35,150 nucleotides of DNA. It comes from Chloroflexota bacterium (GTDB lineage Bacteria; Chloroflexota; Dehalococcoidia; Bin125). Positions 12,456 through 28,531 of this stretch are shown in pieces. The notes under the pieces are model-generated. The model did no database searches. It was not told the DNA's origin and saw only the letters and a program-made list of their open reading frames with translations. Within the stretch, counting starts at the first letter, position 1. Each line of letters begins with the position of its first letter. The stretch is from the NCBI GenBank assembly GCA_028875225.1, contig JAPPFB010000006.1, positions 1 to 35,150 of the forward strand. The letters are read 5' to 3'. Position numbers and translations under genes: made by a program.

Positions 12456-13775
12456 TCAGTTCAGCCAGGCCAACGGGTTGACCGCTTGACCGTCGATGAT
12501 GATTTCAAAGTGTAGATGCGCGCCTGAGGAGTTCCCGGTGTTGCCCACCGTGCCGATGAAGGCGTTCGCCTGTACCCATTCCCCTTCGCGGACCCAGATG
12601 GCGTCGAGATGCGCATATCGCGACCGGTAGCCGCCGCCGTGGTCAATCTCGATCCAGTTGCCGTACGAGGGGTCCCATGTCGCCACGGTCACTTGCCCCG
12701 CCGCCGTCGAGCCCACGATGGTGCCCACCGCCGCGACGAAATCGACGCCCGTGTGGTAGCCAACCGAGTTCGCCCGAGGCGTCCCGAACAGGTCGCTGAT
12801 CTTGTCGTATCCCAACGGCCAGAGGAAGTCGGGTACCGACCACACCGCAGCACCCTGGCTACTACCCACGCCCGTCGTCACAGCGCTACCCGAGGCCACC
12901 GAAGCGGATCCATGAACGAGCAACAGCTGCTGACCGGCAAAAATCTGGTCAGGACTGGAAATGCCGTTCGCGGGATAGGCCAAAGTCGCATCCAGGCTGG
13001 CCTGGAAGTTCTCAACCAGGAAATCGAGGTTGTCCCCGGGCTGGACGGTGTACACCAGACCGTCGACCGCCGGCAGCGTCAACGACTGTCCGACGGTCAA
13101 CAGATTGGGGTCGTAGACGTCGAAGTTGTTGAACAGGACCGTGGCCTCTTGCAGGCCGAAGCGATCGGCGATGCTTGACGCCGTATCGCCCTGTTCAATC
13201 ACGTAGCTGAATGACACGGGCAACTGCGCGCCGGCGTGGAGGCCCAGATACTGCCGGATCCGCGCAGCCGGATCGTCAAGCGCGACCACTTCGGCGGCGG
13301 CCGCCGAGGTCTCGACGGAGCTACCAGCATCGACCGGAGCCGCCGCGTCCGAAATCGTCTCGGTTGACGTCGAGATCGCTCCAGAAGTGACAGGTTCCGC
13401 GGCAGCTGTGCTGGATATTGAAGGTCTGACGGTTGGCTCGGCGCTTGATGTCGTTGACGTCGATTCGGCCGCCAGGACCGGCTCTGTACCTCTGGATGTC
13501 TCTGTGGAATCAGCAGTCGCGGTCGGTGGGGCAACCGGAGTGACGGTGCGCTGAATGCTCGCGGTTTCGACGGGCGGCGGGATGATGACCGGCAAGGAAA
13601 CCTGTGAAGACAACCGGAAATCGAAGATCACGGCTGAGATCGCGACCAGCGTCGCTGCGACGACGATCACGAACGACCATTGTTGGCCTGTGCTCTCCGT
13701 GCGCTGAGTCGGACTCTCGACCAGGGCCCAACCGCCCAACCGACTGCTCAGCGGCGCCGCAGACAGCCTTAGCAT
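12456..13775 (-). CDS. Membrane-anchored LysM / M23 peptidoglycan peptidase
   Basis: The 439-residue protein has a single N-terminal membrane helix (about residues 33-53, SFVIVVAATLVAISAVIF), a Ser/Thr/Ala-rich linker of about 100 residues, two LysM-type repeats (YVIEQGDTASSIADRFG; YTVQPGDNLDFLV) and a C-terminal M23 domain. Zinc ligands of the LytM/M23 fold are visible: HTGVD, and HLHFE near the end. M23 enzymes cut peptide cross-bridges in peptidoglycan or activate amidases, and LysM binds glycan. The predicted location is the outer face of the membrane. It faces the sirtuin unit divergently across a 145-bp gap that holds the plus-strand promoter. Confidence 0.92.
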   Translation of the reverse strand: MLRLSAAPLSSRLGGWALVESPTQRTESTGQQWSFVIVVAATLVAISAVIFDFRLSSQVSLPVIIPPPVETASIQRTVTPVAPPTATADSTETSRGTEPVLAAESTSTTSSAEPTVRPSISSTAAAEPVTSGAISTSTETISDAAAPVDAGSSVETSAAAAEVVALDDPAARIRQYLGLHAGAQLPVSFSYVIEQGDTASSIADRFGLQEATVLFNNFDVYDPNLLTVGQSLTLPAVDGLVYTVQPGDNLDFLVENFQASLDATLAYPANGISSPDQIFAGQQLLLVHGSASVASGSAVTTGVGSSQGAAVWSVPDFLWPLGYDKISDLFGTPRANSVGYHTGVDFVAAVGTIVGSTAAGQVTVATWDPSYGNWIEIDHGGGYRSRYAHLDAIWVREGEWVQANAFIGTVGNTGNSSGAHLHFEIIIDGQAVNPLAWLN

Positions 13776-13860
13776 GCCGCGAACCTGGACTGAAACATCA
13801 GGCTATGCGCTGTCCACATGACATCGGCAGTTTAACGCAGTCCGGGCGTCCCGGAGGGCC

Positions 13861-13889
13861 GTGACAATCGGCGAAAAATCAGCTACCAT
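13861..13889 (+). promoter_or_regulatory. Sigma-70-type promoter ahead of the leader ORF and sirtuin
   Basis: GTGACA (13861-13866) and TACCAT (13884-13889) are separated by exactly 17 bases. This is the best consensus promoter I find in the window. The predicted transcript starts near 13896, just before the strong AGGAGG of the leader ORF at 13921. Confidence 0.6.
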
Positions 13890-13920
13890 GACGGCGGTTG
13901 GGAACAGAGAGGAGGAATTG

Positions 13921-13986
13921 ATGCGCAAGCTGAACATTCACCTCGTCTTTGGAGTACTTCAAGTCGACCGTCCAGGCTCCCGTTAG
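13921..13986 (+). CDS. 21-codon leader ORF
   Basis: The ORF starts with ATG, encodes 21 residues (MRKLNIHLVFGVLQVDRPGS followed by R) and ends in TAG. It is preceded by AGGAGG with ideal spacing, stronger than the binding site of the sirtuin gene itself, and by the promoter at 13861-13889. The peptide has no obvious run of one amino acid as in amino-acid attenuators. A different frame continues from TTG 13949 (EYFKSTVQAPVREP...) to a CPTC, so a frameshift or recoding event could join the first nine residues to a longer product of about 60 residues. Translation is likely, but the role is unknown. Confidence 0.5.
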   Translation: MRKLNIHLVFGVLQVDRPGSR

Positions 13987-14011
13987 GGAGCCGAAGGCAC
14001 AGAAGAAGATG

Positions 14012-14029
14012 CGCCCCCGAGAGGGGGCG
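14012..14029 (+). terminator. GNRA-capped hairpin between leader ORF and sirtuin
   Basis: CGCCCCC (14012-14018) pairs perfectly with GGGGGCG (14023-14029) around a GAGA loop. Only a weak T-containing sequence follows, so it is not a classical intrinsic terminator. Its place between the leader ORF and the sirtuin start suggests attenuation or RNA stabilisation. Confidence 0.4.
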
Positions 14030-14055
14030 TTGTCGTATGTGATGGATGATGGCCC

Positions 14056-14862
14056 ATGCCCGACATGCCAGAGACGGTCGACAGACACCAGGACTCAGTT
14101 GAACGCGCTGCCGCGCTGCTGGCCCAATCGCGCTATTGCATCGCCTTGACCGGCGCCGGCATCTCGGCGGAGTCGGGCATTCCCACCTTCCGGGGCAAGG
14201 ATGGACTCTGGACCAAGCACGGCGAGCCGCCGCTGAACCAATACGAGCAATTCTCCGCCGACCCGGCCGAATGGTGGCAGAACGTCGCCGAGCGGCGGCG
14301 CAACCCGGATGAGCTCACTGCCACAATCGCAGAGGCGCAACCCAACGACGCCCATTACGCGATGGCCGAACTCGAGCGGATCGGGGTGCTCAAGCACATC
14401 ATCACCCAGAACGTCGACGGTCTCCATCGCGCCGCCGGCGCCGAGAGCCTGACCGAAATCCACGGCTGTACGACCCTCCTCCGCTGCATCGCCTGCAACA
14501 CCCGCTCCCCGTTCGACGAGATCCCCGAGATCTTCCCGCCGCGTTGCGACAAGTGCGGCGGCATCGTCAAGACTGACACCGTGATGTTCGGCGAGCCAAT
14601 CCCACCCGATTGCCTGCAGCGTTGCTATGAGGAAGCCTCGAGGGCTGATTGCGTCATCCTCGTTGGCACCACGGCCGTCGTGTCACCCGCTGCCGATTTT
14701 GCCTTCGCCGTCGGCCAGCGAGGCCACCCGATGATCGAAGTCAATCTCGATCCGACGATCATCACGCAATATTGCACCGTCGCGATACACGACAAGGCGG
14801 GCGAGCTGATGTCTCGAATCGTCTCCGAGGTCAAGCAGATCCAGGCGGCCGAATCGAACTGA
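14056..14862 (+). CDS. Sirtuin (SIR2-family NAD-dependent protein deacylase)
   Basis: The 268-residue protein is a bacterial CobB-like sirtuin. It has the NAD-binding GAGISAESGIPTFRG, the catalytic ITQNVDGLH and the His in EIHG, a CxxC...CxxC zinc site (RCIAC and RCDKC), and the late NAD motifs VGTTAVVSP and VNLDPT. Sirtuins remove acetyl or other acyl groups from lysine using NAD and control enzymes such as acyl-CoA synthetases; an AMP-forming acyl-CoA synthetase with the C-terminal lysine motif typical of such control lies at 30219 in this window. The ATG at 14056 has no strong binding site, and translation may depend on the leader. Confidence 0.94.
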   Translation: MPDMPETVDRHQDSVERAAALLAQSRYCIALTGAGISAESGIPTFRGKDGLWTKHGEPPLNQYEQFSADPAEWWQNVAERRRNPDELTATIAEAQPNDAHYAMAELERIGVLKHIITQNVDGLHRAAGAESLTEIHGCTTLLRCIACNTRSPFDEIPEIFPPRCDKCGGIVKTDTVMFGEPIPPDCLQRCYEEASRADCVILVGTTAVVSPAADFAFAVGQRGHPMIEVNLDPTIITQYCTVAIHDKAGELMSRIVSEVKQIQAAESN

Positions 14863-25972: not shown

Positions 25973-26620
25973 ATGCCGCCTGTCCGACGCAAGTTCTCCA
26001 TCCGCAAGGCCAACGCCCACCTGCGCGAAGCCGATCCGGTCCTCGCCCGGCTGATCGACGAACACGGATCATTCCAGCCTCGCCCGTCCAACGATCCCTG
26101 GTCGGCGTTGGTTCGTTCGATCCTCTTCCAGCAACTCGCCGGCGCGGCCGCCTCCGCCATCCAGCGCAAGTGGTTCGGCTTCTACGGCAATGAAGAATCC
26201 ACGCCCACCCCGGAACAGATCCTTGCGACCTCCGACGAAGACTTCCGCGCCTGCGGCATCTCCCGCCAGAAAATGTCCTACTTCCGCGATCTCGCTTTGC
26301 ACACTTCCGACGGCAGGCTCAAGCTCTCCCGCCTCAATCGCATGTCCGACGACGACGTGACCACCGCCCTGACCGCCGTCAAAGGAGTCGGTGAGTGGAC
26401 TGCCCACATGCACCTCATGTTCCACCTCGGACGGCCCGACATCCTGCCCGTCGGCGACCTCGGCGTGCGCAAGGGTATGCAAGTCGCCTACGGTCTGACG
26501 GAGACGCCCACGCCAAAGGAGGCCCTGGAAATCGGAGCCAGGTGGGCGCCCTATCGAACCGTCGGCAGCTGGTACATGTGGCGCGCCGCCGACACCTTCA
26601 CCCCGGACCAATCGCTCTAA
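25973..26620 (+). CDS. HhH-GPD DNA glycosylase, AlkA-like (3-methyladenine DNA glycosylase II)
   Basis: The 215-residue protein is a monofunctional base-excision glycosylase of the AlkA type. It has a helix-hairpin-helix KGVGEWTAHMHLMF followed by the catalytic aspartate in PVGDLGVRKG, the standard AlkA arrangement. The N-terminal TATA-like domain of E. coli AlkA is missing, giving the shorter form common in many bacteria. It removes alkylated purines such as 3-methyladenine from DNA. It precedes two dehydrogenase genes by 11 bp, with which it may share a transcript, though no functional link is obvious. Confidence 0.93.
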   Translation: MPPVRRKFSIRKANAHLREADPVLARLIDEHGSFQPRPSNDPWSALVRSILFQQLAGAAASAIQRKWFGFYGNEESTPTPEQILATSDEDFRACGISRQKMSYFRDLALHTSDGRLKLSRLNRMSDDDVTTALTAVKGVGEWTAHMHLMFHLGRPDILPVGDLGVRKGMQVAYGLTETPTPKEALEIGARWAPYRTVGSWYMWRAADTFTPDQSL

Positions 26621-26631
26621 GGAGTCCTGAC

Positions 26632-27564
26632 ATGCCCGACTCATCCCGAGACCAGTTGATCGGCTTCATCGGCACCGGCAACATCGGCAACCCGATGGCC
26701 CGCAACCTGATCGAGGCTGGACAGCAACTCGTCATCTACGATTTGCGGCCTGAAGTCATGGAAAACCTCCTGGAACTCGGCGCTGAGTCCGCCGAAAGCT
26801 GTGCCGAGGTTGCCTCCCGCTGCTCCGTTGTGTTCAGCTCGCTACCGGGTCCGCCCGAGATCGAAGCGGCGATCACCAGCGCCGACGGCATCCTCGCGGG
26901 CGCGTCCCCGGGCGACATTCACGTCGATCTGAGCAGCAACTCGATCACGACCGTCCGCCGCCTGGCCCAACTCGAAGCCGACGCCGGCGTCAGCTACATC
27001 GACGCACCGGTTACCGGTGGAGTCCCGGGGGCTGAATCCGGCACACTGACCGTCCTCGGCAGCGGCGATCTTGACGCCTTCGAGCGCGTCCGCCCGCTGC
27101 TCGATCACATCGGATCCAACGTCTTCCACCTGGGCGAGGCCGGGGCCGGCTGCCTGTTCAAGCTGCTCAACAACGTGATCATCCTCTGCGGCAACCAGAT
27201 CGTGCAGGAGGCCCTCGTCCTGGGAACCAAGGCCGGACTGGACCCTGAAGACCTCGTTGAAAAGCTTCGGCTCGGCACTGCGAGGCCATACATGGGACTC
27301 GCCCCCTACCTGCTCGGCAAGCGCTTCGACAACCCATCCTTCACTCTGCGCCTTGCTGAGAAGGACGTCTCCCTGGCGATAGAGGCCGCCCGCGCCAATC
27401 AGGTCCCGATGCCCGTCGCCAACGCCGCCCACCAGACCTATCTCCGCGCCCTCAGCGCCGGCCTCGGCGAACAGTCCTTCCTCGCCACCCTCCAGGCCAT
27501 CGAAGCCGCCGCCGGCCACGAAATCCCAACCATCCAGATCGAAGGCGGCCGCGCCTCGCTCTAA
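26632..27564 (+). CDS. NAD-binding beta-hydroxyacid dehydrogenase (1 of 2)
   Basis: The open frame extends far upstream, but ATG 26632 has AGGAG nine bases before it and gives MPDSSRDQLIGFIGTGNIGN, identical to its paralog's first residues. The 310-residue protein has the Rossmann motif GFIGTGNIG, the DAPVTGG substrate motif, and the catalytic lysine region GCLFKLLNN (Lys and Asn conserved in the family). Members reduce or oxidise 3-hydroxyisobutyrate, tartronate semialdehyde or related 3-hydroxy acids. Substrate not assigned. The paralog follows after 52 bp. Confidence 0.92.
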   Translation: MPDSSRDQLIGFIGTGNIGNPMARNLIEAGQQLVIYDLRPEVMENLLELGAESAESCAEVASRCSVVFSSLPGPPEIEAAITSADGILAGASPGDIHVDLSSNSITTVRRLAQLEADAGVSYIDAPVTGGVPGAESGTLTVLGSGDLDAFERVRPLLDHIGSNVFHLGEAGAGCLFKLLNNVIILCGNQIVQEALVLGTKAGLDPEDLVEKLRLGTARPYMGLAPYLLGKRFDNPSFTLRLAEKDVSLAIEAARANQVPMPVANAAHQTYLRALSAGLGEQSFLATLQAIEAAAGHEIPTIQIEGGRASL

Positions 27565-27573
27565 CTCCTCCCC

Positions 27574-27594
27574 GTCCCCGCTTCAAGCGGGGAC
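27574..27594. terminator. Perfect hairpin between the two dehydrogenases
   Basis: GTCCCCGCT (27574-27582) pairs with AGCGGGGAC (27586-27594) around TCA. There is no T-run. It resembles the palindromic repeat stems but lacks the GCCGAAGGC core, so it is a shorter relative or a terminator. Confidence 0.5.
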
Positions 27595-27616
27595 CCGCTC
27601 GGCCGGAGACCGTGAC

Positions 27617-28531
27617 ATGCCCGACTCATCCCGCGATCAACTCATCGGATTCATCGGCACCGGCAACATCGGTAACCCGATGGCCCGGCAACTCATCCGC
27701 GGCGGCCATCAGCTCGTGGTCTTCGACCTAAGGCCGGATGTGATGGAGAACCTCCTCGAACTCGGAGCCGAGCCGGCCTCCAGCGCCGCCGAAGTCGCAT
27801 CCCGCTGTTCCGTCGTCTTCACCTCGCTGCCCGGCCCTCCCCAGATCGAAGCCGCGACCACGGGTCCCGAAGGCATCCTCGCCGGAGCCTCCCCCGGAGA
27901 TGTACACATTGATCTCAGCACCAACTCGCTACGCGGAGTCCAACGAATCGTCGATCTCGAGACCGACGCCGGAGTCATCCACATCGACGCCCCGGTCACC
28001 GGGGGCGTCGTGCGAGCCGGCCAGGGCGACCTGACCGTCTACGGCAGCGGAGATGCTGAGACCTTCGAACGCATCCGCCCGCTCCTCGACCACATCGGCA
28101 CGAACGTCTTCCATCTCGGCGACGCTGGCATGGGCTGTCTCTACAAGCTGGTCAACAACACAATCGTGCTCTCCGGTCACATGATCGTCCAGGAGGCGCT
28201 GGTGCTGGGGGCGAAAGCCGGACTCGATGTGCCCGACCTGGTCGAGAAACTCCGGCTCGGCACCGCCCGACCCTACATGGGACTCGTCGATCTCTTCCTG
28301 GCCAAGCAGTGGGAGAATCCGCCTTCGACGATGGTCATCGCTGAGAAAGATGTCAGGCTCGCGCTGGAACTCGCCCGCGAGCAGCAGGTCGCCATGCCCG
28401 TCGCCAACGCCGTCCATCAGACCTACCTGACCGCCCTAGCCGCCGGCTTCGACGAACTCCACCACTACAGCACCATCGACGTCCTCGCCGCCGCCGCTGG
28501 CATCAACATTCCCTCGATTGAATCTCACTGA
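27617..28531 (+). CDS. NAD-binding beta-hydroxyacid dehydrogenase (2 of 2)
   Basis: The 304-residue product is a close paralog of the preceding gene, about two thirds identical by eye, including the first 24 residues. It has GFIGTGNIG, IDAPVTGG and GCLYKLVNN with the catalytic Lys. The C-terminal part, which shapes the active site in the partner subunit, is more diverged, so substrate range may differ. Both genes were probably made by a local tandem duplication. A palindromic repeat copy follows. Confidence 0.92.
   Translation: MPDSSRDQLIGFIGTGNIGNPMARQLIRGGHQLVVFDLRPDVMENLLELGAEPASSAAEVASRCSVVFTSLPGPPQIEAATTGPEGILAGASPGDVHIDLSTNSLRGVQRIVDLETDAGVIHIDAPVTGGVVRAGQGDLTVYGSGDAETFERIRPLLDHIGTNVFHLGDAGMGCLYKLVNNTIVLSGHMIVQEALVLGAKAGLDVPDLVEKLRLGTARPYMGLVDLFLAKQWENPPSTMVIAEKDVRLALELAREQQVAMPVANAVHQTYLTALAAGFDELHHYSTIDVLAAAAGINIPSIESH

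Follow-up and report, generated by a model that had tools for sequence, protein, structure and literature searches.

The locus described here raises the question of what a 21-codon open reading frame (ORF), equipped with a promoter-like site, a Shine-Dalgarno (SD) sequence and two perfect hairpins, does in front of a sirtuin gene. The window, by which we mean the whole stretch of 35,150 nucleotides analysed, is contig 14 of a 3.22-Mb genome, and the features discussed are collected in Table 1. A preliminary description had proposed a promoter with a 17-nt spacer leading to AGGAGG and the ORF, and we found these elements as proposed, the promoter-like site being the only one within 13500-14300 (801 bases), where shuffled sequences give 0.1 each. 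That description had also listed a 7-bp hairpin with a GAGA loop (hairpin 2), whose stem is indeed present, but had missed a second one (hairpin 1), which turns out to recur in the family presented below. The fold of 13893-14055 beat that of 199 of 200 shuffles (z -3.6). None of the Rfam 15 covariance models scored above its curated threshold in the window, and at E ≤ 10 over 13700-14100 there were two weak matches and none further. A fold that pairs the 5' region to the ORF, obtained by minimum free energy folding and RNAalifold, was dropped because several of its pairs were altered or broken in relatives.

Table 1. Position of the features around the small ORF, in window coordinates.
Feature	Position	Strand	Description
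LysM/M23 peptidase gene	12456..13775	-	Upstream and divergent; boundary gene, outside the family
Promoter	13861..13889	+	-35 GTGACA (13861-13866), 17 nt, -10 TACCAT (13884-13889); 9/12 consensus bases
Shine-Dalgarno AGGAGG	13910..13915	+	Five bases 5' of ATG 13921
21-codon ORF, MRKLNIHLVFGVLQVDRPGSR*	13921..13986	+	Core GVLQVD; Asp16 codon 13966-13968
Hairpin 1	13975..13992	+	GGCTCCC-GTTA-GGGAGCC, perfect 7-bp stem; stop codon inside; 6-nt spacer after the Asp16 codon
Hairpin 2	14012..14029	+	CGCCCCC-GAGA-GGGGGCG, perfect 7-bp stem; poor tail TTGTCGTATG; probably a degenerate intrinsic terminator
Sirtuin (SIR2) gene	14056..14862	+	Pfam PF02146, 153.3 bits; outside the family

Elsewhere in the window (26395-28531), MPDSSRDQLIGFIGTGNIGNPMAR is present in both of two neighbouring ORFs, which look tandemly duplicated and which we take to be a 3-hydroxyisobutyrate dehydrogenase-like gene.

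Searched against 61 genomes (its own and those of 60 relatives), the leader DNA was present in every one of the 15 genomes that make up the genus and also in one sister-genus genome (G017), always adjoining the sirtuin gene, which is cut by the contig end in one of them (G003). DNA identity was 80-97% to the 14 other genus genomes and 73% to G017, and by eye the alignment breaks down 5' of the promoter. A promoter matching at least 9 of 12 consensus bases was present in 14 of the 16 aligned rows, and AGGAGG five nucleotides ahead of the ATG in 15 genomes out of 16. All 16 genomes encode the peptide MRKLNIHL(V/I/L/R)(F/Y)GVLQVD, with residues 1-8 and 11-16 invariant; it is followed by (R/S)(P/L)GS(R/H) and a stop within hairpin 1 in 15 genomes, and ends immediately in G017. 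Over the 16 codons aligned in the 16 genomes, pN/pS was 0.09 in frame versus 1.30 and 1.72 in the shifted frames. Since the ratio is low in this frame only, the comparison shows the leader ORF to be translated and under selection at the protein level. Both ORF and stem are thus conserved among relatives, a point on which the preliminary description had made its case depend. The loop of hairpin 2 is not conserved, being a GNRA tetraloop in just 7 of the 16 rows by eye, and only 2 of these 16 members pass the terminator test.

These leaders do not stand alone: judged by layout and core motif, the window ORF is one copy of a family of small translated RNA genes present in many Chloroflexota, with the peptide core GV(W/L/F)QVD. 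First, a covariance model of 16 leaders (R1) found four genuine distant members in the class, its fifth match (L082, in G153) being a terminator only, without the motif. Second, a model of SD, ORF and hairpin 1 built from 13 sequences (R2) was applied to 393 genomes of the class; it matched 78 at E ≤ 1e-4 and 248 at E ≤ 1, where many chance matches are expected. The 74 R2 loci read, out of 76 (L103 and L112 were left out), share the same arrangement of SD, start, lead, core and hairpin, in which 3-13 lead residues, frequently including a His four positions ahead of the Gly, precede GV(W/L/F)(Q/I)V(D/Q) or some variant of it. Two R2 matches, in G702 (L247) and G032 (L256, weak at E 0.011), had no motif on reading. 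Third, a model of 101 sequences (R3) matched, at E ≤ 1e-4, 90 of 235 class genomes from 33 family codes (matches not each read) and 51 of 400 genomes of the phylum, 14 in the class and 37 outside it; E-values of such models are rough, and many of the genomes are metagenome-assembled. All out-of-class matches but those in G473, G536 and G543 were read, and 33 of the 34 carried the motif or a near variant, that in G549 (L281) being degenerate. The R3 match in G052 (L278) had no motif, and none of the nine phylum-scan genomes listed under family code f14 matched.

A DNA pattern that demanded the SD and a GGR codon and ended at the Asp codon retrieved 72 stretches from 84,980 species. Fourteen of them, 13 copies from the window's genus and one copy already covered (G311), were not read; of the other 58, 52 have a start and the motif behind an SD, and six were rejected as chance frames resembling ATP-binding loops. 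Of the 52 true stretches, all but L199 and L225 carry the label Chloroflexota or one below it. These two are labelled Actinomycetota and Deltaproteobacteria, their copies resemble the Chloroflexota ones, and their contigs may be mis-binned. A small control of six genomes labelled as lying beyond the phylum yielded nothing at E ≤ 1e-4 and a single match at 1.2e-4 (L296, in G742, labelled Tectomicrobia); this weak match reads GVLQVE in a longer frame and is either chance or a distant member.

Within the family, loci of code f33 (e.g. L115-L118 and L120-L123) have the core GV(W/L/F)IVQ at the same distance to hairpin 1. Paralogs with other peptide ends were also observed, YRKWFNPI in L146 (G264) and YRVWFGPI in L160 (G337). 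As the former lies directly behind a GVWIVQ copy, one genome can hold both diverged and tandem copies. Rfam models run over 20 loci of relatives returned two tRNAs and nothing else, and those run over L166 gave sub-threshold matches and no better ones. Literature searches, mostly without subscription journals, returned nothing on the motif family or on matching small RNAs, small proteins or leader peptides of Chloroflexi, Dehalococcoidia or Dehalococcoides. The family is thus without an Rfam 15 match or a name that we could find, yet recurrent in many Chloroflexota families.

We then asked how hairpin 1 relates to the ORF. Among 99 distinct members, all seven of its pairs show changes on both sides and 93.5% of cells are paired; both-side changes occupy 137 cells, versus 46.2 in shuffled and at most 30 in slid controls, in an alignment fitted to the model, which favours structure. 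Covariation of this extent shows hairpin 1 to be selected as RNA. Its position was measured in a set of 137 loci, 8 of them without an ORF by our regular expression and 129 with one, of which 128 have the hairpin. The distance from the Asp (or Gln) codon to the first paired base was 6-7 nt in 103 of the 128 members, the other 25 not showing this spacing by the hairpin finder; outside the genus and G017 it was 6-7 nt in 87 of 112. By contrast, hairpin 1 lies anywhere from -72 to +4 relative to the end of the stop codon. Because R1-R3 include the hairpin, members found with them lean to 6-7 nt (54 of 77 outside the genus and G017). In the pattern-found members, where the hairpin was not part of the pattern, the spacing was 6-7 nt in 33 of 35, and the stop-to-hairpin distance again ranged from -72 to +4. 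A later set of 34 loci gave 6-7 nt in 23, the finder showing no such spacing in the other 11; three of its loci (L263, L273 and L285) repeat the earlier set and all have 7. Since the spacing to Asp is fixed while that to the stop is variable, these data show that hairpin 1 takes its position from the Asp codon and not from the stop, as though placed for a ribosome at Asp and not for termination.

The peptide is 14-21 residues long in 118 of 129 members; 13 also occurs, and a late stop extends it to at most 38. In the wider set pN/pS was 0.40 in frame versus 1.06 and 1.44 in the shifted frames, a contrast flattered by the pattern-found loci, as the genus figure is not. The last position of 97 distinct cores outside the genus is Asp in 71, Gln in 25 and Glu in one. 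Outside the genus and G017, the residue that follows Asp varies among the 78 members of the Asp type (S 22, R 22, K 7, C 6, W 5, stop 5, M 4, and others), and it is Arg in 14 of the 16 genus and G017 rows and in 19 of the 34 later loci; counting Arg and Lys together gives 29 of 78, 14 of 16 and 22 of 34, respectively. All 88 model-found members have GGA or GGG for the core Gly (72 of 72 when the genus and G017 are set aside), a count that omits the 35 pattern-found loci, for which GGR had been demanded, and that the search somewhat favours since the model seeds carried GGA. In the window as a whole, Gly is encoded by GGC 291 times, GGA 78, GGT 48 and GGG 43. The later set has GGA or GGG in 32 of 34, and GGT in L288 and L290. 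An internal GGAG lies 8 nt ahead of the Val codon and could act as a Shine-Dalgarno sequence. We saw no -1 slippery heptamer by eye at the Val-Asp codons.

Within 260 nt behind hairpin 1, 86 of the 112 members outside the genus and G017 have a terminator-like hairpin followed by a run of T, versus 6 of 111 shuffled sequences; its distance is similar within groups, and in many f33 loci it lies 170-200 nt behind hairpin 1. The domain between hairpin 1 and the terminator aligns in 42 sequences of one large group as a long stem closing a small hairpin, plus a third short helix. Sixteen of its 20 pairs have both-side changes (85 cells versus 30.9 shuffled and at most 48 slid) and 86.5% of cells are paired, a degree of covariation that shows the 3' domain, too, to be selected as RNA. 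The window's genus, G018 and G107 lack the domain (the latter two by eye) and leave no room for it, as their next hairpin starts 12-19 nt behind hairpin 1. Because the ORF and hairpin 1 are kept even there, these two are the conserved heart of the unit; lacking the 3' domain, the copy in the window's genus could be a relic or a changed device. A promoter of at least 10/12 precedes 26 of the 112 members, versus 0.8% of shuffles, the other 86 having none so good. Thus the marks of a dual-function small RNA (own promoter and terminator, conserved ORF and RNA structure) are found in the family, with a promoter that is strong in 26 of 112 only and a terminator that is weak in the window's genus.

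What could such a unit do? We propose, giving this reading an even chance, that it is a stand-alone unit whose ribosome pauses at Asp, with the peptide, the GGAG and the hairpin acting jointly, and that the pause sets the fate of the RNA. The unit would consist of promoter, SD, an ORF mostly of 13-21 codons, a hairpin 6-7 nt past the Asp codon, and a terminator. From this geometry, the ribosome would pause once ...GV(W/L/F)QV-Asp occupies its active centre. The nascent peptide, of at most about 20 residues when Asp is added, would act from inside the exit tunnel, within which a peptide of this length stays at that step. The internal GGAG would assist the pause as a Shine-Dalgarno-like sequence, and hairpin 1 would assist it at the mRNA entry. 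A conserved peptide end, an SD-like GGAG and a stable hairpin each slow ribosomes; since all three meet at one place, pausing seems to us the best explanation. The paused ribosome would hold hairpin 1 open and thereby decide the folding of the 3' domain, the stability of the RNA or read-through of the terminator. As there is no constant downstream gene, the pause most likely acts on the RNA itself or on its 3' domain. In the window's genus the unit may have been reduced to ORF, hairpin and weak terminator, and have come to lie on the sirtuin gene. Several points speak against pausing: the large family f33 has GV.IVQ and not GV.QVD, two paralogs have other ends, the residue after Asp is mixed, the hairpin finder did not give the 6-7 nt spacing in 25 of 128 and 11 of 34 members, and the window's genus is without the 3' domain. 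A bolder version, which we regard as tentative and rather doubtful, is a phylum-wide arrest RNA, in which GVWQVD-Arg would halt the ribosome at the entry hairpin on a dedicated transcript and the stalled ribosome or the refolded RNA would be the output, a translation-state sensor acting in trans.

One alternative is a micropeptide gene, whose free peptide works after release while the hairpins do no more than terminate translation and transcription and shield the mRNA. The strong constraint on the protein fits this, as do the terminators (86 of 112), the strong promoter matches (26 of 112) and the many members that stop one codon past Asp (44 of the 78 Asp-type ones outside the genus and G017, and 26 of 34 in the later set). 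Yet hairpin 1 keeps its spacing to Asp even in members whose ORF continues for another 5 to 25 codons, through the hairpin, and the core Gly codon is nearly confined to GGA and GGG. A finished peptide alone predicts neither, so that both speak against a micropeptide, as does the covariation of the 3' domain. We therefore hold a micropeptide possible but somewhat unlikely, and prefer the pausing ribosome.

The preliminary description had favoured a leader-peptide attenuator of the sirtuin gene, in which translation of the ORF decides read-through of hairpin 2. The unit does adjoin the sirtuin in 16 of 16 genus and sister-genus genomes. In the window's genus, the sirtuin ATG has no SD and lies 26 nt behind hairpin 2, whose U tract is weak (terminator test passed by 2 of 16, versus 86 of 112 elsewhere). 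Since a weak terminator so close upstream and the missing SD make read-through from the leader promoter possible, the arrangement suggests that the sirtuin of this genus may be partly expressed in this way. However, the family at large points elsewhere. A sirtuin search of 239 loci, many of them overlapping, was positive in 47, namely 46 genus or G017 copies and L235, a distant Dehalococcoidales contig with the unit at 1154-1203 and a 30%-identical sirtuin-like match at 1622-2257, on the same strand and about 0.4 kb behind. This one case would suit an attenuator but cannot decide the matter, and we take it as coincidence. The remaining loci have no sirtuin beside the unit and their neighbours differ. 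Pfam matched 12 of 20 downstream ORFs, with no constant gene among them: DUF72, radical SAM, M16 peptidase, ribulose-phosphate epimerase, aconitase X, HPP and two phosphoribosyltransferase-like genes (one under its cut-off) are co-directional, and HAD, integrase, TatD and DUF1684 face the unit. Seven of 10 upstream ORFs matched, all different. By eye, the next ORF is presumably an ABC transporter in G018 and RpiB in G107. With no neighbour common to the loci, the unit appears mostly stand-alone outside the window's lineage.

Other observations weigh on the attenuator as well. G016 and G019 carry the sirtuin and gave no R1 match at E ≤ 0.01, the listed peptides show by eye no run of codons for a single amino acid, and G017 has a -10-like TACAAT 8 nt ahead of the sirtuin ATG (by eye), so that a separate promoter may serve its sirtuin. 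Like arms of hairpin 1 and the terminator pair slightly better within than between loci (-7.3 versus -6.5 and -7.5 versus -6.6 kcal/mol), as an attenuator would have it, but the excess is small (of 86 loci, 47 were better and 30 worse in the first comparison, 41 and 31 in the second), the unlike arms pair slightly worse within loci, and shared base composition could explain the difference. It is too small to claim an antiterminator switch between these arms. We consider the attenuator unlikely: on the distribution of its copies, the family is one of translated small RNA genes and by origin no sirtuin attenuator, and what stands of the earlier proposal is its weaker form, read-through in the genus.

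A dual-function small RNA, whose main role lies in the RNA (the 3' domain or a base-pairing target) with the ORF secondary, would account for the covarying domain of the 42 sequences in one large group and for terminator distances that are similar within groups. Since the domain is missing in the window's genus, G018 and G107 despite their ORF and hairpin 1, we judge this reading improbable. Least credible by far is one small protein split by a one-base shift near 13945-13952: its second frame, proposed to begin at TTG 13949, is open for at least 57 codons in the window, but the first frame is the same and uninterrupted in all 16 genomes, ACG replaces the TTG in 5 of the 16, and the second frame has neither a conserved start or end (its length varies from 24 codons to beyond the limit of the sequence compared) nor any coding constraint.

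Gene callers can easily overlook so short a gene (mostly 13 to 21 codons) with an RNA of its own. Arrest peptides are usually described ahead of the gene they control, and the family would offer a test of whether a stand-alone RNA gene can have stalling as its product. Moreover, a large natural alignment in which a hairpin is tied to a codon, not to the stop, would be a data set on the residues and spacing that halt ribosomes.

Several known systems resemble the family in part. Like tmRNA, it combines a structured RNA with an internal ORF, but this ORF has its own start codon and SD; the tmRNA model (RF00023) had no match in the window, and the genome's tmRNA match lies on another contig (G000:C3:53126-53482, 125.6 bits, over the cut-off). 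SgrS/SgrT and SR1/SR1P are stand-alone RNAs with a promoter, a terminator and a small ORF. The family shares this architecture with them and with VcdRP, and differs in having no Rfam match, a hairpin locked to ORF codons and a shorter ORF. TnaC is a short peptide with Trp and Asp acting within the tunnel. The family peptide is likewise short with Trp and Asp, but many members, the one in the window included, have Leu or Phe in place of Trp, and no tna genes were among the neighbours scanned. In macrolide-dependent arrest leaders, stalling is tied to a change of mRNA fold (PMC9178857). Among them, ErmBL stalls at Asp10, with Arg7 and Val9 to Lys11 critical and Arg11 stalling three times better than Lys11 (PMC4935803). 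The family resembles it in its very short ORF and, in part of the members, in Val-Asp, often followed by a basic residue. It differs in having no resistance methylase or constant downstream gene (20 ORFs scanned), mostly its own terminator, a spread over a phylum, and Trp, Leu or Phe where ErmBL has Arg7. We regard the resemblance to ErmBL as a likeness and not as membership.
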